DNA of 58,264 nt from Meiothermus rufus DSM 22234 (GTDB lineage Bacteria; Deinococcota; Deinococci; Deinococcales; Thermaceae). Of the stretch, positions 29,637 through 40,527 are shown one piece after another. Both the position numbers and the translations under genes were made by a program. Location of the stretch: NCBI RefSeq assembly GCF_000423425.1, contig NZ_AUHY01000014.1, positions 1 to 58,264 of the forward strand, in the 5' to 3' direction. The notes beneath the pieces were generated by a model, which ran no database searches, had not been told where the DNA came from, and was given only the letters and a program-made list of their open reading frames with translations. How positions within the stretch are numbered: position 1 is the first letter of the stretch; each line of letters begins with the position of its first letter.

Positions 29637-29809
29637 CTTGGCTCTTCCTCGTTACCCCGGCTGGGCAGGCCCCGGTTCAGCACGATGAGCAACCCCCAGG
29701 CAGCAAACAGGTAGACCGCCTGGGCCAGCCCGCCTGGGGGCAGATAGAGCAGGGGATAGCTGAACAAAAGCAGCCCCAAAGCGAAGAGAAAAAGGCTTCG
29801 CAGCTTCAT
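29633..29809 (-). CDS. Small membrane protein, 58 aa, between DUF294 and kinase genes
   Basis: Translated directly from the sequence: MKLRSLFLFALGLLLFSYPL begins the first helix, a second helix runs LAQAVYLFAAWGLLIVL, and the tail RGLPSRGNEEEPR is charged. The ATG overlaps the stop of the DUF294 gene and its TGA overlaps the ATG of the kinase gene, both as ATGA. That arrangement, the hydrophobic pattern and Leu-rich codon use make it a real gene. It may be a subunit of, or chaperone for, the symporter-kinase. Function unknown. Confidence 0.8.
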   Translation of the reverse strand: MKLRSLFLFALGLLLFSYPLLYLPPGGLAQAVYLFAAWGLLIVLNRGLPSRGNEEEPR

Positions 29810-31557
29810 CGTATCTGGAACCTTTGCAGGGTGGCCTCCTGGGCCTGTAGGATGGCCTGGAAAACCTCCTTTAGCCGCCGGGTCTCCCGGGGGCTTAGCT
29901 CGGCCAGGCGAACCCGGTTGGTGGGGGGCTGGCCCTGGCGCAAGGCCGCAAGCTGCTGGCGCAGCCGCAGCTCGAAGAGGAAGGCATACCCTTCGGCCAG
30001 GGCTTCGCTGGTGGCCGGGCTCAGGTGGCCGGCCTGGGCCGCTGCGTTGAGGCGAGCCAGGGTGCCGCGGGCCCGACTCTGGGCTAATAGGCCGTATAGC
30101 CGGGCCAGGCTCACGATGGGGGCGATGCCGGCGCGTTTGAGGTCCAGCTCGCCACCGGGGGCCTGCAGCCGGCCAAACAAGCCTAAAGGAGGGCGGAAGG
30201 CCAGGCTGGCCTTGGCCAGGTGGTACAAAAACACCCCCCGGCGGGCCCGCTCCAGGATCAGCTCATCCAATGGGGCCAGCTCGAGGGAGCCGTAGACCCC
30301 TCGGAAGTCGAAGAAAATCTGGGCCTCGAGCAATGCCTGAGGCTCGGGGTTTTCCATGTATTGCAGCAACATCGCCTGCCAGGCAGCCAGGCTCTGCCGG
30401 TATCGGGTGGCCATAAACCCTCCCTGGCAGTAGGGGAAACCAGCCTGGTGTAGCCCCTCCACCACCTCTTCGGCCAGGGCCTGAAAGTAGTCTGCCCCAG
30501 TTTCCTGGCCCAGTACCAAGGCGTTGTCCTGGTCGGTGAGCAGGGCCTGTTCCTTGCGGCCCTCCGAGCCGTAGACCACGAAGGCGTAGGGCACCGGGGG
30601 TGGGCCCAGCCGGGCCTCGGCCTGGCGCAGCAGGCGCCGGATGAGGGCATCGTTGAGGGTGGCCACTATCTCCCCGATGCGCAAAGCCGGCACACCGCCA
30701 TTGAGCAGGTTTTCGACCAGGCGGCCCAGGGCTTGGCCGTACTGGCTTAGCTCCAGCCGCTCGATGCGTTTGAGCAGGAAGAGGGGGCTTTGGGTCTGGG
30801 CCTCGAGGTAGGTGGTGTGGGTGATGACCCCCAGAAAGCGATTCTCCTGGCTGAGGGGCAGGTGGTGGATGCCCTGCTCGACCATGTAGGCCAGGGCCTC
30901 GAACAGCGGGGTTTCGCCAGGGAGCGAACGCACCGGCGCACTCATTACGGCGGCCACCTTTGTCTCGGGGCCTAAGCCCTGGGCCAGTACCCGGTTGCGC
31001 AAATCCCGGTCGGTGAGGATACCCGGGGGCTGGCTTTCCACCAGGAGGCTCGAGACCCCCTCCTCGGCCATCTTTTGCGCCGCCTGGGTCACGCTGGCCT
31101 GGGGCGAGATATAGACCGGTGGGCGGCGGAGGAGGCTTAGGGCTGGCTGGAACAGCAGGGCTTCCTCCCGCTCGGGCAGGTGGATGCGCTCAGCCAAGCT
31201 CTCGAGCAGCAGCTCGGCCAGCCGGGGCTGGGAGAGCAACAGGGGCAATGCCTCGCGGGGCAGGCGCAGCAAGCGCACCGGGGTCTGGGCCTCCAGGCTA
31301 TAGCGTGGGGGCTCGCCCGAGAGCAGGGAGGGTAGGGCCAGAAAACTGCCCGGCCCCAGCACCGCCCGCGGCTGGCCGCCCCGGCTAAGCCGCACCTGGC
31401 CTTCCTCTAGGAAGTAGAAATGGCTGGCCGGTGGGCCGGCCTCCTCCAACAGGAGGTCACCTGCAGCATAGGTGGCCCAGCTACTCATCTGCAGCAGGGT
31501 TGTAAGCTGCTCCGCCGGCAGCAGGTTTAGAGGGAAAAGCTCGGTGGCGGTTTCCAT
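29806..31557 (-). CDS. cNMP-binding/CBS/DUF294 nucleotidyltransferase-like protein
   Basis: A 583-residue soluble signalling protein. Residues 5-125 are a cyclic-nucleotide-binding fold (GDLLLEEAGPPASHFYFLEE). Two CBS motifs follow at about 145-255 (VYISPQASVTQAAQKMAEEG, MSAPVRSLPGETPLFEALAY). A GlnD-like nucleotidyltransferase domain contains GSEGRKEQ (330-337) and TDQDNAL. A DUF294 C-terminal helical domain completes it. This family regularly accompanies DUF4212/SSS acetate symporters and is thought to regulate them. First gene of the chained group that ends at 25047; a terminator separates it from the symporter genes. Confidence 0.9.
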   Translation of the reverse strand: METATELFPLNLLPAEQLTTLLQMSSWATYAAGDLLLEEAGPPASHFYFLEEGQVRLSRGGQPRAVLGPGSFLALPSLLSGEPPRYSLEAQTPVRLLRLPREALPLLLSQPRLAELLLESLAERIHLPEREEALLFQPALSLLRRPPVYISPQASVTQAAQKMAEEGVSSLLVESQPPGILTDRDLRNRVLAQGLGPETKVAAVMSAPVRSLPGETPLFEALAYMVEQGIHHLPLSQENRFLGVITHTTYLEAQTQSPLFLLKRIERLELSQYGQALGRLVENLLNGGVPALRIGEIVATLNDALIRRLLRQAEARLGPPPVPYAFVVYGSEGRKEQALLTDQDNALVLGQETGADYFQALAEEVVEGLHQAGFPYCQGGFMATRYRQSLAAWQAMLLQYMENPEPQALLEAQIFFDFRGVYGSLELAPLDELILERARRGVFLYHLAKASLAFRPPLGLFGRLQAPGGELDLKRAGIAPIVSLARLYGLLAQSRARGTLARLNAAAQAGHLSPATSEALAEGYAFLFELRLRQQLAALRQGQPPTNRVRLAELSPRETRRLKEVFQAILQAQEATLQRFQIR

Positions 31558-31644: not shown

Positions 31645-33387
31645 CTAGTCGGGCATGCGCATCTGGAGTACGAACTCCTCCCGTTCCTTGCCCTCGGCGC
31701 TGGTAGCTAGGGAGGCCAGCACCGCAGCAATGGCGTTGGCTGCGACGGAGATCATCCCCCAGGCGATGGTACCGATCTTCTGCCCGAAGAGCACCAGGGG
31801 CGGGGCGTTGAAGACCCCAACCGCCAGCACGTAGGGCAGGGCCACCAGCATGCCTACCACCATTCCGGCTACCACCCCGTAGCGGTTGAGCCGCCGCCAG
31901 AAGATGCCCAACATGATGATGGGGGTGAAGCTCGAGGCCGCGAAGACGAAGGCCCAGCCCACCATCAAGGCCACGTAGCGGCTGAAGTTGGGGTCGCTCA
32001 GGGCCAGGTAGCCCAGGAAGCCGCCGATGAGGCCGATCACCACCAGCATCACCCGCACGAAGCCCACCTCGCCCTCTTCCGAGGCCTGGGGGTTGATGAA
32101 GCGCTTGTAGATGTCGCGCGATACCGCAGTGGACATGGCCAAAAGCAGCCCGTCAGCGGTGGAAAGGGCGGCGGCCAAGCCGCCTACCGCCACCAGCGGG
32201 GCGATGAGCCAGATCATGCCGAACATGTCGGGCATGCCCACCACCACGATGTCGTTGTGGAAGGAAAGCTCGGCGGGTTGGATGATGCCGTCGGAGTTGG
32301 CGTCGTTCACCTTGACCAGGCCAGTGGGCAGCCACTTCTGCACCCAGGGGGTATTCTGTACGACCTCGAGGGGTTTGTTCCACAGCTCGCTGATGGCCCG
32401 ACGGGCAATGGCCGCGTAGATCGAGGCCGAGGTGTAGAGCAACCCGATGAAGAGGAGAGCCCAGCCCACGCTCATGCGGGCGGCGTGCACGCTGGTCACG
32501 GTGTAGAAGCGTACCAGGATGTGGGGCAGGCCCATGGTTCCCAGCATCAGCACCAGCGCGGCCAGTATCCAGTTAAGCTGCCCCGTACCCCCGGCAAACG
32601 GTCGGGCAAAGGGCTCGGTCCAGAGGGGGCTCAGCCCGGCTGCCGCCTCGCGCGACTCCACCTCGCCGACCAGCGGGCCATACTGCACCCAGGGCAAGGG
32701 CAACAGGCCCAGCGCCGCTCCGGCGATCACGATGGGGGTGAGGTACATGGCGATCAGCACCCAGTACTGCACGAACTGCACCCAGGTGATGCTGCGCCAA
32801 CCACTGGTCCAGGCGTAGGCCAGAGCGCCGAATACCCCCACGAAGACCGCGATGGTAGCCGGAATGCCCAGGAAGCGGGAGAAGACCACCCCTACCCCGG
32901 TGAGCTGGGCGGTGAGGTAGGTCAGGGAGGTGATGAAAACGATGATAACCGCGATCACCCGGGCGGTGGGCCAGCCCCCAGCCAGCTTTTCGATCAGCTC
33001 AGGCACGGTGTAGGTGCCCGACTTGCGCACGAAAGGCGCGATGGTGAAGGCCATCAGGGTATAGCCCAGGGTCCAGCCGATCACGTAAGGCAGGGCATCG
33101 AAGCCCAGAAAGGCAATGATCCCGGCCATGGAGAGGAAGCTGGCTGCGGACATCCAGTCGGCGGCGGTGGCGGCTCCGTTCACCAAGGCGGGAATGGAGC
33201 GGCCCGCCACGTAGAAGTCCCCTGTGGACTGGGAGCGGATAGAAAGGGCCAGCACCAGGTAGACCGCGATGCTACCGATAATCAAAATCAGGGAAGTCAG
33301 GTACTCCCTACCGATGGGGTAGGCCAGCGCGGCCAGAAGCACGACCACGACAGCCGTAATCAGGGGGTTGCGTACTACGGGCGACAT
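31645..33387 (-). CDS. Sodium:solute symporter (VC_2705 / ActP-like acetate family)
   Basis: A 580-residue membrane protein with about 13-14 helices in the SLC5/SSS fold (NGAATAADWMSAASFLSMAG, GYTLMAFTIAPFVRKSGTYT, GGLAAALSTADGLLLAMSTA). The long cytoplasmic or periplasmic loop with VNDANSDGIIQPAEL resembles a calcium-binding EF-hand-like loop, seen in this subfamily. With the DUF4212 protein it forms a sodium-driven importer of acetate or related short acids. Position in a cluster with acetyl-CoA synthetases supports this. It begins 3 bp after the DUF4212 stop. Confidence 0.9.
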   Translation of the reverse strand: MSPVVRNPLITAVVVVLLAALAYPIGREYLTSLILIIGSIAVYLVLALSIRSQSTGDFYVAGRSIPALVNGAATAADWMSAASFLSMAGIIAFLGFDALPYVIGWTLGYTLMAFTIAPFVRKSGTYTVPELIEKLAGGWPTARVIAVIIVFITSLTYLTAQLTGVGVVFSRFLGIPATIAVFVGVFGALAYAWTSGWRSITWVQFVQYWVLIAMYLTPIVIAGAALGLLPLPWVQYGPLVGEVESREAAAGLSPLWTEPFARPFAGGTGQLNWILAALVLMLGTMGLPHILVRFYTVTSVHAARMSVGWALLFIGLLYTSASIYAAIARRAISELWNKPLEVVQNTPWVQKWLPTGLVKVNDANSDGIIQPAELSFHNDIVVVGMPDMFGMIWLIAPLVAVGGLAAALSTADGLLLAMSTAVSRDIYKRFINPQASEEGEVGFVRVMLVVIGLIGGFLGYLALSDPNFSRYVALMVGWAFVFAASSFTPIIMLGIFWRRLNRYGVVAGMVVGMLVALPYVLAVGVFNAPPLVLFGQKIGTIAWGMISVAANAIAAVLASLATSAEGKEREEFVLQMRMPD

Positions 33388-33390
33388 GGG

Positions 33391-33666
33391 CTACTTTCCC
33401 TCCTGGAGCTGTCGCTGCAGCTCCTGGTCCAGTTGGTTCATCTTGGCTGCATACCAGAAGATCAGCACAACCCCCAGCACAATCACGATGAAAGCGTTGA
33501 TGTACCAGTGAAGTGAGGGGATGGGCCCTAGAGTGACCCCTTTAAGCGAGGGCGAGAGAACTGGCAGCACGATGGCGATGATGATCCAGTAGATCAGGGA
33601 GGTGACGGTGAGCCTTTTGACCTGGCCCCAGTACCACTCCCGGATCGCTTCAGGTGTTTCTCCCAT
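33391..33666 (-). CDS. DUF4212 symporter small subunit
   Basis: A 91-residue protein with two helices (SLIYWIIIAIVLPVLSP and WYINAFIVIVLGVVLIFWYAA), the usual DUF4212 pattern beginning WYWGQVKRLT and ending in a charged coiled tail (MNQLDQELQRQLQEGK). ATG at 33666 is chosen because GGAGG lies 5 bp upstream; in-frame ATGs at 33678 and 33684 overlap that site. It is the constant companion of the SSS permease encoded next. Confidence 0.9.
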   Translation of the reverse strand: MGETPEAIREWYWGQVKRLTVTSLIYWIIIAIVLPVLSPSLKGVTLGPIPSLHWYINAFIVIVLGVVLIFWYAAKMNQLDQELQRQLQEGK

Positions 33667-33737
33667 AACAGCCTCCATGTACATGCAAGCAGTCCCACAG
33701 GGCCTCCTTGGGGCTTTTTTTCTGCTTGCTGGGGGGT

Positions 33738-33805: not shown

Positions 33806-35689
33806 TTACTCCTCTAAGGTGGAGAGATCCCCGGGATCCTTGCCCAGTTCCTGGGCTTTGAGGAGCCGGCGCAGAATCTTGCCCGAGCGGGTTTTGGGTA
33901 GCTTGTCTAAGAAGACCAGTTCGGCAGGGGTGGCGATGGGGCCCAGCTCGAGGCGCACGTGCTGGATGATTTCCTCCCGCAGGGCTGGGCTTTTTTCCCG
34001 CCCGGCCCTGAGCACCACAAAGGCCTTGATGTTTTCCCCTTTGATGGGGTCGGGCACCCCGATGACCGCAGCCTCGGCCACCGCCGGGTGCGAGACCAAG
34101 GCACTTTCCACATCGGCAGTGCCAATGCGGTGGCCGGCCACGTTGAGCACGTCGTCGGCCCGGCCCAGCACGCCAAAGTAGCCATCGGGGCTCTGGCTGG
34201 CCACATCGCCGGCGGCGTATACCCAGCCGGGTATCTCGGTCCAGTACTGGGTGTAGCGGGCGTGGTTGCCCCAGACGGTGCGCATCATGTGGGGGAAGGG
34301 GCGCTTGAGCACCAGCAACCCCCCGCTGCCGGGGGGAACCTCGTGGCCCTTAGCGTCCACCACCGCTGCCTCGACCCCCGGCAGGGGCACCCCGGCAAAG
34401 CCCGGACGGGCCTCGAGGGTGATGGGGGTGCCCAGGGTAGGCCCGCCCAGCTCGGTCTGCCACCAGTTGTCGGCCACAAAGCCGCGCTTTCCCCCCTCCG
34501 TCAGGTGCTCCACCGCCCACTGCCAGGCCTCGGGGTTGAGCGGCTCGCCCGCCACCCCAACGAGGCGCAGGCTGGAGAGGTCGTGGCGGGCGGGCCACTC
34601 CGGGCCAAACTTCATAAACATCCGCACCGCGGTGGGGGCGGTGAACATCACGTTCACCCGGTAGCGCTCCACCACGCTCCAGAAGGCCCCGGGGTCGGGG
34701 TAGTCGGGCGCTCCCTCCCGCAAGAGGCTGGTCACGCCCTCCAATAGCGGCGCATAGACGATGTAGCTGTGCCCCACGATCCAGCCGATGTCGGAGGTGG
34801 CCCAGTACACGTCGGTATCCTTCACATCGAAGAAACTGCGCAGGTGGTAGGCGGTGCCCACCATGTAGCCCCCGTGCACGTGCACCACCCCTTTGGGCTT
34901 GCCGGTGGAGCCGGAGGTATAGAGGATGAACAGGGGGTGCTCGCTGTCGAGGGGCACGGCCTCGGCCTTGGGGGGGTGGCTCCAGAGCAACTGGTTGAAG
35001 TCGTGGAAGCGGGGCCCCTGGGGGGCGGCCTTGCTGCGGCAGAACCAGACCGTGGGAATATCCAGGTCTTCGATGGCCTGAAGCACGATGGCCTCGAGGT
35101 CTACCGCCTTGCCCCGGCGGTAGCTTACGTCCCCGGCCATCACCAGCTTGGCCCCGGCGTCCAGGATGCGCTCCCGCAGGGCCGAGACCCCCAGACCGGC
35201 ATAGACCACCGAGTGGATGGCCCCGATGCGGGCACAGGCCAGTATGGCGATGATGCCCTCCAGGGTGAGGGGCATGTAGATGATCACCCGGTCGCCTTGG
35301 GCAATGCCTAAGCGGCCAAGCGCGGTAGCCAGCCGGGCTACCCGGTCGAGGAGTTCGCCGTAGGTCAGCTTTTCCTCCTGGCCGTCCTCCCGCAGGTAGA
35401 GGAGGGCCACCTGGTTGCGCTTGGGGCCTTTGGCGTGGCGGTCGAGGGCGTTGTAGGTGATGTTGGTCTGGCCGCCCACAAACCAGCGGTGGTCGGGGAA
35501 GTTCCACTCCATGACCCGCTCGTAGGGGCGGAACCAGTGAAAGCGCTGGGCCTGGGCCCCCCAAAACCCCTCGGGGTCTTGCAGGCTACGGGTGTACTCC
35601 GCCTGGAAATCCGGCACATTGGCGGCCTCTCGCAAGGCCGCCGGGGCCTGGTAGCGAAGCTCGGTTTTGAGTAGTTGCTCGAGTTCCAT
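33806..35689 (-). CDS. Acetate/short-chain acyl-CoA synthetase (second ACS)
   Basis: A 627-residue AMP-forming ligase. It carries the ATP loop [11 protein letters not shown], the acyl-pocket and aryl motif NWWQTELGG with the tryptophan typical of acetyl- and propionyl-CoA synthetases, the hinge GRADDVLNVAGHR, and the catalytic and acetylatable lysine in [18 protein letters not shown]. It activates acetate or propionate to the CoA ester. Closest relative in the window is the ACS half of the adjacent IclR fusion: a 100-bp tract is identical at DNA level. It begins 16 bp after the stop of that gene, so the two are probably co-transcribed. Confidence 0.9.
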   Translation of the reverse strand: MELEQLLKTELRYQAPAALREAANVPDFQAEYTRSLQDPEGFWGAQAQRFHWFRPYERVMEWNFPDHRWFVGGQTNITYNALDRHAKGPKRNQVALLYLREDGQEEKLTYGELLDRVARLATALGRLGIAQGDRVIIYMPLTLEGIIAILACARIGAIHSVVYAGLGVSALRERILDAGAKLVMAGDVSYRRGKAVDLEAIVLQAIEDLDIPTVWFCRSKAAPQGPRFHDFNQLLWSHPPKAEAVPLDSEHPLFILYTSGSTGKPKGVVHVHGGYMVGTAYHLRSFFDVKDTDVYWATSDIGWIVGHSYIVYAPLLEGVTSLLREGAPDYPDPGAFWSVVERYRVNVMFTAPTAVRMFMKFGPEWPARHDLSSLRLVGVAGEPLNPEAWQWAVEHLTEGGKRGFVADNWWQTELGGPTLGTPITLEARPGFAGVPLPGVEAAVVDAKGHEVPPGSGGLLVLKRPFPHMMRTVWGNHARYTQYWTEIPGWVYAAGDVASQSPDGYFGVLGRADDVLNVAGHRIGTADVESALVSHPAVAEAAVIGVPDPIKGENIKAFVVLRAGREKSPALREEIIQHVRLELGPIATPAELVFLDKLPKTRSGKILRRLLKAQELGKDPGDLSTLEE

Positions 35690-35704: not shown

Positions 35705-38356
35705 TTAGGGTTCTAGTGTGGAAAGGTCGCCAGGGTCGGCGCCTAGCTCCTGGGCTTTGAGCAGGCGGCGCAAAATTTTGCCACTCTTGGTGCGGGGCAG
35801 GTGCTCGAGGACCTCCACTTCGGTATGCAGGCCGGCGCTACCTAGCTGGCGGCGCAGATAGGTGGCCAGTTTGCTGGCCATAATCTCACGGACCTGGAGG
35901 CTACTTTCTCGGGTTTTGAGCACCACGTAGACCTTGATGACCTCGCCGTGAATGGGGTCGCTCAAGCCCACCGCAGCGGCCTCGGCTACCGCAGGGTGGG
36001 CCAGCATAGTTCCTTCGATCTCGGCGGTGCCAATGCGCAGCTCGCCTACCTTAATCACGTCATCGGAGCGGCCCAAAAGGGCGATGTACCCCTCGCTGTC
36101 GCGCACTGCCAGGTCGCCGGTGGCATAGACCCCCGGGATGCGCTGCCACTGTTCGGCGTAGCGCTCCGGGTTATTCCAGAAAGTGCGCATGAAGTGGGGG
36201 AAGGGGAACCGCAGCACCAGGTGGCCCTTTTCGCCTGGGGGCAGCTCCCGCCCCTGGGGGTCTACCACTGCCACCTCTACCCCCGGCAGGGGGAGGCCCA
36301 CCTTGCCCGGCTTGACCGGGCAGCACAGGGGGGTGGAAAGGCAGGGCCCACCGGTCTCGGTCTGCCACCAGTGGTCCAGCACATGGGCCAGGTGTTTGGT
36401 AGCCCAGTGCCAGACCTCGGGGGCCAGGTACTCGCCCACGCTGGCCACCAGGCGAAGCTCACTCAGGTGGGCTTTCTTGGCCCAGTCGTCGCCATGCTTG
36501 CGCAGGGTGCGTAGCCAGGTGGGGCTGGTGATGAGCACGTTAACCCCGCACTCTTCCAGGGTCTCGTAAAAGGAGCCGGCGTCGGGGTAGTCCAGCCGCT
36601 CGGCCCGCAGCACGCTGGTCAGGCCCTCCAGAAGGGGGGCGTACAGGCCGTAGCTATGCCCCACAATCCAGGACAGATCGGCGGTGGCCCAGCTGACCTC
36701 CCCCTCCTTCAGGTCGAAAAGGGTGCGCAGGTGGTAGGTGGTCCCCACCATGTAGCCCCCGTGCACGTGCACCACCCCTTTGGGCTTGCCGGTGGAGCCG
36801 GAGGTATAGAGGATGAACAGGGGGTGCTCGCTGTCGAGGGGCAGGGCAGGGGTGGTGGGCCGGTGGGCCTCGAGCAACTCCCAGAACTCCAGCGTATCTT
36901 GCTGCCCATCCCGGCTATGCCACAGGATGGGCATGGTCAGCCCTTGGGTAGCCTCTTCGACCAGCCCGCGTAAGGGAATGGTGCGCCCGGCCTGGTACAT
37001 GCGGTCGGCAGCCACCAGGAGCCTCGCCTGGGTGTCCAGCAGGCGCTCCCGCAAAGCCTGGCTGCCCAGGCCAGCGGGGATGGCTACATGCACCGCCCCG
37101 ATGCGGGCACAGGCCAGGAAGGTTAGGGTGGTCTCCAAGCTGGTCGGCATATAGACCGCCACCCGGTCGCCCGCCCCTACGCCTAAAGCCTGCAGCCCAC
37201 CGGCTAACCTCGAGACCAGGTCGCGTAGCTCGCGGTAGCTTACCTTGTGCACGCTGCCATCGTCGGCCAGCACCACCAGGGCCAGCTGGTTGCGCTTGGG
37301 GCCTTTGGCGTGGCGGTCAAGGGCGTTATAGGTGATGTTGGTCTGACCGCCCACAAACCAGCGGTGGTTGGGGAAGTTCCACTCCACGACCCGCTCGTAG
37401 GGGCGGAACCAGTGAAAACGCCGGGCCCACTCGGCCCAGAAGCTCTCTGGGTCTTGCTGGCTGCGAGCGTATTCTGCTGCGTAGTCTTGCAGGTTGGCGT
37501 TGTTTCGCAGCGAAGCTGGGGCCCATACCGGCTGCTCCTCATAGGAAGGGATGGCGGGGGGTGTCCGAGGGGGTTGTAGTGCAGGCGCGTTCTTTTCCTC
37601 CTCTTCCTTTGGCGTTTGGGCCTGGGGGGGGAAGCTCGAGGCGGCCCGGGCTACCTCCTGCACGGCCTGGGCCAGCCGGGTAAAGGCGTAGGGGAAACGC
37701 CTCGAGGGCACCAGTACGCCCAAGGCCCCCACCACCCGGCCCTCTGGCCCAAAAATGGGTGCGGCCAGGCTGGAAAGGCCCTCGGCGTGCTCCTCGATCT
37801 CCACGGCAAAGCCCAACTGCCGCACCTTGGCCAGCTCCTCCTCGAGGGTCAGGGGGTCGGTGATGGTGAGAGGGGTAAAAGGGCGCAGGTGCTGGAAGTG
37901 GCGGGCCTGAGCCTCGGCCTCCAGGAAGGCCAGCACGGCTTTGCCCAGGGCCAAAGCGTGGAAGCCTTCGGTCACCTGATCCAGGCCCACCAGGCGGGGC
38001 AATCCCTGCCGCCCCCGTGTGCTGAGCCTTAGCTCCCCTTCGCGGCCCAGGAGGGCCAGATAGCTCCGCTCGCGGGTGCGCAGGTAGAGTTCCTCCAGGG
38101 CGTCGCTCAGCTTTTCAGGTCGGGCCAGGGGGGCTGGGGCTGGAGCCAAAGCCGTGCGGGAGAGCCGGTAGGTGCTCCCTTCCCGCTCAGCAAAACCCTC
38201 CGCTACCAGGCTGGCCAGAAGGGCGTAGGCGGTGGAGAGGCTCTTGCCCAGGAAGGTGGCCAGCCGCGCGGCCTCCACGCCCTCGGGGTGCTGGGCCAAA
38301 TAGGCCAGCACGCGCAACGCAGCTTGTACGGTGGTCAGTTTGCGGCTCTGTGCCAT
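35705..38356 (-). CDS. IclR-type transcription regulator fused to an acyl-CoA synthetase
   Basis: An 883-residue single frame. Residues 5-65 are an IclR winged helix (LTTVQAALRVLAYLAQHPEG, KSLSTAYALLASLVAEGFAE). Residues 75-240 are the IclR effector domain (GFHALALGKAVLAFLE, SLAAPIFGPEGRVVGALGVL). A Pro/Glu-rich linker spans about 241-280. Residues 281-883 are a full acetyl-CoA-synthetase-like enzyme with [35 protein letters not shown] and LPRTKSGKILRRL. The gene is transcribed divergently from acs across a 224-bp region with a dyad between the two promoters. I infer a regulator that senses its own substrate or adenylate and controls acetate genes. GRSDD replaces GRADD; activity untested. Confidence 0.9.
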   Translation of the reverse strand: MAQSRKLTTVQAALRVLAYLAQHPEGVEAARLATFLGKSLSTAYALLASLVAEGFAEREGSTYRLSRTALAPAPAPLARPEKLSDALEELYLRTRERSYLALLGREGELRLSTRGRQGLPRLVGLDQVTEGFHALALGKAVLAFLEAEAQARHFQHLRPFTPLTITDPLTLEEELAKVRQLGFAVEIEEHAEGLSSLAAPIFGPEGRVVGALGVLVPSRRFPYAFTRLAQAVQEVARAASSFPPQAQTPKEEEEKNAPALQPPRTPPAIPSYEEQPVWAPASLRNNANLQDYAAEYARSQQDPESFWAEWARRFHWFRPYERVVEWNFPNHRWFVGGQTNITYNALDRHAKGPKRNQLALVVLADDGSVHKVSYRELRDLVSRLAGGLQALGVGAGDRVAVYMPTSLETTLTFLACARIGAVHVAIPAGLGSQALRERLLDTQARLLVAADRMYQAGRTIPLRGLVEEATQGLTMPILWHSRDGQQDTLEFWELLEAHRPTTPALPLDSEHPLFILYTSGSTGKPKGVVHVHGGYMVGTTYHLRTLFDLKEGEVSWATADLSWIVGHSYGLYAPLLEGLTSVLRAERLDYPDAGSFYETLEECGVNVLITSPTWLRTLRKHGDDWAKKAHLSELRLVASVGEYLAPEVWHWATKHLAHVLDHWWQTETGGPCLSTPLCCPVKPGKVGLPLPGVEVAVVDPQGRELPPGEKGHLVLRFPFPHFMRTFWNNPERYAEQWQRIPGVYATGDLAVRDSEGYIALLGRSDDVIKVGELRIGTAEIEGTMLAHPAVAEAAAVGLSDPIHGEVIKVYVVLKTRESSLQVREIMASKLATYLRRQLGSAGLHTEVEVLEHLPRTKSGKILRRLLKAQELGADPGDLSTLEP

Positions 38357-38400: not shown

Positions 38401-38429
38401 ATGATGGCTTTACCCGGGGTGGGTGTCAA
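38401..38429 (-). promoter_or_regulatory. Promoter of the IclR-ACS fusion gene
   Basis: Minus strand: TTGACA (38429-38424) and CATCAT (38406-38401), spacer 17 bp. The start codon is 45 bp downstream of the -10. Perfect -35, four of six at the -10. Confidence 0.6.
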
Positions 38430-38432
38430 GTA

Positions 38433-38458
38433 TTGGCAAAATTCGCAGGATTGCCAAA
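38433..38458 (+). promoter_or_regulatory. Dyad operator between divergent acs and IclR-ACS promoters
   Basis: TTGGCAA-11-TTGCCAA is a perfect 7-bp inverted repeat (38433-38439, 38451-38457) placed between the two -35 boxes, 13 bp upstream of the acs -35 and 3 bp from that of the fusion gene. Similar sequence precedes the symporter promoter. Position fits activation of acs and repression of the fusion gene. Confidence 0.55.
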
Positions 38459-38470
38459 GTAGAGGATTTC

Positions 38471-38499
38471 TTGACGAGAGGGGTTTTTCTTTCTATCCT
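38471..38499 (+). promoter_or_regulatory. Promoter of acs
   Basis: TTGACG (38471-38476) and TATCCT (38494-38499) separated by 17 bp. The leader is about 75 nt and ends in GAGGGG about 8 bp before the ATG. Confidence 0.75.

Positions 38500-38580: not shown

Positions 38581-40527
<1,947 letters not shown>

Follow-up and report, generated by a model that had tools for sequence, protein, structure and literature searches.

A gene in the 58,264-nt window analyzed here, from Meiothermus rufus DSM 22234, encodes in a single chain an IclR-type transcription regulator and an acetyl-CoA synthetase (ACS) that has largely kept its residues for adenylation and has glutamate in place of a glycine of the CoA tunnel (Table 1). 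We consider it rather probable that the product is a one-component regulator responding to acetate or another short-chain carboxylate, in which the ACS half would act as the sensor through the formation or binding of an acyl-adenylate. Several features favor a sensor: the regulator is complete by profile match, a candidate site beside the gene is conserved, the adenylation side of the enzyme is kept, its CoA side is altered, and an ordinary ACS is encoded next to it.

Table 1. Features of the fusion gene and its surroundings (positions in the window)
Feature	Positions	Strand	Basis or remark
cNMP-binding/CBS/DUF294 protein, cluster end	29806..31557	-	Pfam
VC_2705-family sodium/solute symporter	31645..33387	-	TIGR03648 518 bits, cut-off 321
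Small membrane ORF, 97 aa, before symporter	33391..33684	-	
acs2, sister paralogue of fused ACS	33806..35689	-	TIGR02188 732 bits, narrowly above 725
IclR-ACS fusion gene	35705..38356	-	883 codons, open from ATG to stop
ACS half	35708..37513	-	aa 282-883; Pfam and fold match
Codon of Lys860 (catalytic Lys609 position)	35777..35779	-	Alignment
Codon of Glu772 (Salmonella Acs Gly524 position, pantetheine tunnel)	36041..36043	-	Alignment
Pro/Glu-rich variable linker	37514..37636	-	aa 241-281
IclR C-terminal effector domain, matched part	37637..37960	-	aa 133-240; Pfam IclR_C
IclR winged helix-turn-helix	38180..38323	-	aa 12-59; Pfam HTH_IclR
-35 box TTGACA, fusion-gene promoter	38424..38429	-	Read from sequence
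Candidate operator, 39-bp spacer between back-to-back -35 boxes	38431..38469	.	Conserved intergenic module
-35 box TTGACG, acs promoter	38471..38476	+	Read from sequence
acs, canonical acetyl-CoA synthetase, divergent	38581..40527	+	TIGR02188 1020 bits, cut-off 725

The preliminary description had read the gene as one uninterrupted frame with an IclR winged helix and effector domain (aa 1-240), a Pro/Glu-rich linker and a full ACS with ATP loop, WWQTE and lysine motif, transcribed divergently from acs, and it was right on each of these points. The frame runs through the linker uninterrupted by a stop or frameshift, and all five IclR and ACS Pfam domains exceed their cut-offs: HTH_IclR (residues 13-59) scores 38.5 bits against 22 and IclR_C 81.7 bits against 24 (profile positions 63 to 173 of 174), and the ACS half matches ACAS_N, AMP-binding and AMP-binding_C at residues 292-345, 348-726 and 779-860. 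Both IclR domains were matched in 23 of 23 relatives scanned, and a profile of the IclR half from 23 relatives had the IclR structure 1mkm as its best match (E value 1.5e-27, positions 7-214 of 233), so that by profile match the IclR half is complete. The helix-turn-helix segment (aa 8-62) has a mean identity of 93% to 15 copies from the same genus. Mean identity within the genus is 36% in the linker versus ∼79% in the ACS half. The ACS half contains the P-loop, WWQTE and lysine motif, and its structural model superposes on Salmonella Acs with a Z score of 53 and an rmsd of 1.7 to 1.8 Å over ∼597 residues. The predicted structure of the IclR half (pLDDT of <50 at residues 67-271) is uninformative, because its input alignment held no other IclR rows.

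IclR and ACS are joined in one frame in 46 of 50 genomes of the family, from five genera, and 41 of these frames are full-length; the others are cut by a contig end (G019), end early (G001) or are broken within the ACS half (G028, G038 and G045). A joined frame in so many genomes rules out sequencing or assembly error as the origin of the fusion and equally disposes of separate genes in all close relatives, both of which the preliminary description had raised against its own reading. In G004 the two parts sit at the edges of two contigs, G042 (65% complete) has an IclR fragment only, and the fusion is absent from two nearly complete family genomes, G006 and G011, as is the symporter. G011 does encode a free-standing IclR regulator (L191, 4402-5256), which has ∼40% identity to the IclR part of the fusion. 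In the phylum sample of 111 genomes, where listed matches stop at about 3e-13, the matches listed for the 61 genomes outside the family include one genome with the fusion, G058, from a second family. In three other phyla, with 1,194 genomes in all (400 from the L038 phylum, 396 from the L041 phylum and 398 from the L046 phylum), none of the matches listed is a fusion or extends into the IclR half, the lowest listed query start being 214; weakly similar fusions in these phyla could be missed, because the E value was strict and the matches listed for the L038 phylum are a subset. Among the best 80 relatives, no ORF of at least 120 aa gave an IclR match. In L038 and L085 the ORF looks extended at its N terminus, but the extra stretch has no match to IclR and seems to precede the true start codon. 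A plasmid search reported three records at 80% query coverage, outside the best 60 matches listed.

Unlike acs and acs2 on either side, which both exceed the NCBI cut-offs for ACS, the fused ACS misses the curated thresholds (TIGR02188, 587.4 versus 724.95; PRK00174, 597.8 versus 657). Residues were counted from alignments with Salmonella Acs numbering, and for an unbiased count 41 fusions were compared with 151 references (67 paralogues and 84 outside ORFs), a column being taken as invariant where ≥95% of the references carry one residue. Of 125 such columns, the fusions keep 91 and have lost 18. The kept columns include most of the P-loop, W413, W414, Q415, T416, E417, D500, R515, R526 and K609, and Lys609 is found in all 41 fusions that reach its position (5 of 46 stop short). 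To judge from the alignment, the fused ACS thus keeps its adenylation residues, including Lys609, largely complete. Trp414, which is retained in the fusions, limits acid size (excerpts of PMC8383264 and PMC6122825). Adenylation could itself be weakened, because Lys270 of the P-loop is replaced in 13 of 45 fusions (by Arg in 8) and Pro389 in 43 of 45, although the latter position also varies among the references; the window copy has Lys at 270 and Tyr at 389.

The lost columns include S160, V161, A357, A360, N521, G524 and H525, which we place in stretches bordering the CoA channel; the others have no obvious role. The preliminary description overlooked the missing tunnel glycine, Gly524, which in the window protein is Glu at residue 772. 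Of 43 readable fusions of the family, 40 have Glu at position 524, one has Asp and two have Gly, and the 3 broken copies are gapped there; G004 adds a Glu and G058 an Asp, and with the two Gly copies set aside as chimeras (see below), the residue is acidic in 43 of 43 readable non-chimeric fusions. Gly524 is kept in 30 of 30 acs2 and 37 of 37 acs genes (full-length copies in fetched regions), and in outside organisms (84 ORFs from 80 loci) it is Gly in 82 and Ala in 2. ACS paralogues with Ala at 524 and Lys at the place of residue 521 occur in L038 (Bacterium HR24), where the paralogue adjoins an ordinary acs, and in L039 (a Chloroflexi MAG); these are possibly another altered ACS.

From the numbering of hinge and motif, we equate Gly524 of Acs with Gly409 of 4-chlorobenzoate:CoA ligase (CBL), and Acs with the G524L substitution has reportedly lost thioester formation. 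CBL Gly409, in motif A8, is one of the residues lining the phosphopantetheine tunnel, and its replacement by Leu impairs thioesterification only (excerpts of PMC6122825). In a medium-chain synthetase, Ala instead of Gly at the equivalent position made little difference (excerpts of PMC10455477), and glycine as such would therefore be dispensable there. A further position, 163, at which the Phe of Acs sits 3.3 Å from the CoA adenine (excerpts of PMC6122825), is Pro in 45 of 45 fusions. Several changes on the CoA side need not end CoA use, however, because acs2, which is presumably active, also differs from Acs there (Tyr163, Ala164, Val311, Asp335 and Ala523). Loss of the arginines that contact the CoA phosphates was ruled out as a general mark: Arg191 is kept in 23 fusions and Arg584 in 17, the canonical acs of the family lacks R584, and the R191 position is Glu in 77 of the 84 outside ORFs. 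Taken by its residues, the fused half looks like a neofunctionalized ACS rather than a working acetyl-CoA ligase.

In a quick tree search of 71 selected ACS domains, with SH-aLRT support only, all 22 fusion ACS domains formed one clade (support of 100), and 15 acs2 domains formed a separate clade (88) that is its sister (100). The sister relationship indicates that the fused ACS and acs2 are a duplicate pair. Paths to the fusion ACS, summed from four paths, are ∼3 (window) to ∼6 (G029) times those to acs2 of the same genome. The two fusions with Gly524, G001 (L146) and G003 (L145), come from two genera and, by window-by-window identity, are chimeras: the first part of each is ∼67 to 75% like the fusion (∼40% in the linker window), the C-terminal half is ∼73 to 87% like acs2, and the break points differ. 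No separate acs2 is among the matches listed for these two genomes, and the G001 chimera ends before Lys609. With the glycine in place, the chimeras may represent a CoA-competent form; G003 could be bifunctional or G001 decaying. Four genomes with the Glu/Asp form (G002, G004, G035 and G058) likewise have no acs2 among the matches listed or at the fetched locus, and G002 and G004 belong to the same two genera as the chimeras. Because G002, G004 and G035 keep Glu without a listed acs2, acs2 appears to have been lost by more than one route, for which a Gly524 fusion is not required; with G058, they also indicate that the work cannot always fall to an intact acs2, although acs is present.

The intergenic region between the fusion gene and acs contains two back-to-back promoters. 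The likely −10 element of the fusion-gene promoter is at 38401-38406, and that of the acs promoter, TATCCT, is at 38494-38499 with a spacing of 17 bp. GTCAAG stands at the fusion-side −35 place in 48 of 48 regions compared, and the acs side has CTTGAC in 46 and CTTGCA in 2. The GTCAAG/CTTGAC pair is separated by 39 bp in 42 of these 46 regions, by 40 bp in 3 and by 41 bp in 1; the CTTGCA variant of the remaining 2 regions, at 39 bp, was chosen post hoc. Such a pair, at 20 to 50 bp, occurred in 4 of 9,600 letter-shuffled regions. Information content in the 19 columns at the center of the spacer is 1.49 bits versus 0.65 in the spacer flanks in the genus of the window (16 distinct sequences) and 1.63 versus 1.11 bits in a Thermus-like genus (22 distinct sequences), and in the window this conserved center is at ∼38441-38459, midway between both −35 boxes. 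The dyad that the preliminary description placed between the promoters does exist, at 38433-38457, but it is offset 5 bp from the spacer midpoint and its left arm lies outside the block kept by relatives. The best dyad center of the spacer is the exact midpoint. Its symmetry is weak (48% of nine pairs versus a shuffled best of 41%), and a clear palindrome is unsupported, since 138 of 2,000 column shuffles were as good. The candidate site is upstream of both −35 boxes, with its center 19 to 20 bp from each, a position seen more often with activation than with simple occlusion. G011, which is without the fusion and has acs2 and acs divergent, has no such module in its intergenic sequence. A search of the window genome with the 51-bp module pattern (≤3 mismatches) found no second match, and a wider regulon is unsupported because the full module occurs once in the genome.

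We infer the DNA target, the ligand, adenylate formation, the loss of CoA ligation and the direction of control, and propose the following. The IclR half would recognize the conserved site in the intergenic region and from there control both divergent units, acs on one side and fusion-acs2-symporter on the other. The ACS half would bind ATP together with a short carboxylate, and most likely it would make and hold the acyl-adenylate. With an acidic side chain in the pantetheine tunnel, little or none of this adenylate would be passed on to CoA. The C-terminal domain of an ANL-type enzyme swings by 140 degrees (excerpts of PMC10455477), and adenylate formation with this swing might change the IclR dimer and hence DNA binding. 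More tentatively, and with confidence that falls somewhat short of even, we suggest that these proteins are a class of transcription factors, found throughout the lineage, in which half an enzyme reaction serves to sense a metabolite. In this scenario an ACS duplicate would have been fused to an IclR regulator, an acidic residue would then have closed the CoA tunnel, and the trapped acyl-adenylate, reflecting the product of acetate and ATP and counteracted by pyrophosphate, would have become the signal for acetate genes. The chimeras of two genera would have arisen by recombination with the separate paralogue, which left them a C-terminal ACS half of the CoA type.

The ACS half might instead be a dead pseudoenzyme: it would bind ATP, AMP, acetate or acyl-CoA, and its occupied state would be the signal, with no reaction catalyzed. 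The long branches of the fusion clade, the frequent replacement of K270 (13/45) and P389 (43/45) and the altered CoA-side residues would suit such a protein, but Lys609, which adenylation requires, is retained by all 41 copies that reach its position despite the high divergence of the clade, and D500, R515, R526 and most of the P-loop are kept as well; we regard this explanation as unlikely. The largely complete adenylation residues could also belong to a working acyl-CoA ligase that doubles as a transcription regulator, essentially the bifunctional enzyme-regulator, in the manner of BirA or PutA, of the preliminary description; the two genomes with an acs2-like C-terminal half carrying Gly524 point the same way, as does the presumably active acs2 with its several CoA-side changes. 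A conserved regulator-enzyme fusion beside acs with an operator-like module stands from that proposal, and a BirA-like logic is plausible. A PutA-like enzyme is unsupported: the tunnel glycine is replaced in all 43 non-chimeric copies, and an ordinary ACS adjoins. The fused ACS also scores under the NCBI cut-offs (598 versus 657 and 587 versus 725) that both neighbors exceed, and one of the two chimeras, G001, stops before Lys609. The gene sequences thus suggest that the bifunctional-enzyme reading is probably wrong, and a working ligase seems to us decidedly improbable.

A role for the ACS half in tethering, stabilizing or dimerizing only, with the IclR effector domain sensing a small ligand of its own, would agree with an IclR half that is complete by profile. 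Nearly all adenylation residues are kept in the ACS half, however, and because a mere scaffold would not need them, we think such a role very unlikely indeed. The preferred reading, a sensor that works through an acyl-adenylate, has a parallel in BirA, a single polypeptide that likewise joins a helix-turn-helix domain to an adenylate-forming enzyme and in which the enzyme-bound adenylate is the regulatory ligand (excerpts of PMC4016012). The fusion differs in having an IclR DNA-binding family and an ANL/ACS enzyme fold, and none of the seven Pfam families listed for the chain is a biotin ligase. Moreover, BirA completes the second half-reaction, whereas in the fusion that half-reaction appears, from the residues present, to be disabled. 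By analogy, the fusion is plausibly BirA-like in logic and unrelated in fold.

With AMP-forming acetate--CoA ligase the fusion shares the fold and most adenylation residues, but it differs in the IclR part, Glu/Asp for Gly524 and a score below cut-off. Its HTH_IclR and IclR_C domains are those of IclR-family regulators, but it carries a 600-residue enzyme domain via a linker, and we know of no described IclR-family member with such a domain. In MocR/PdxR-type regulators, a GntR helix-turn-helix is combined with a PLP aminotransferase fold reused as a sensor; the design, a helix-turn-helix joined to an enzyme fold as sensor, is similar, but both parts are unrelated to those of the fusion. Among the open-licence PMC papers listed by full-text search, none describes an IclR-ACS fusion by its title or abstract, and public records probably already hold such chains under generic names. 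If our proposal is true, acetate control in this family (Thermaceae), which includes the laboratory organism Thermus, uses a sensor design without report in the open-licence papers searched, and it offers a clear example from nature in which a metabolic enzyme, having lost one of its two half-reactions, has turned into a signal receptor.

The gene for acs2 starts 15 nt downstream of the fusion gene and, by the matches listed, follows it in most genomes of the family. Farther along the cluster, the 97-aa membrane ORF is probably the small subunit of the symporter, which itself probably serves carboxylate uptake. Among 22 wider fusion loci, a symporter match is nearby in 15 (one of them weak, in G002) and a DUF294 gene in 16; several of the other genomes have the symporter at a different place, and one locus runs into a contig edge. 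The G058 locus has the symporter and the DUF294 gene without acs2. The window symporter is 86% identical to those of G044 and G047, from another genus, and ∼37 to 44% identical to the listed matches from its own genus, which suggests that it was likely replaced by transfer.
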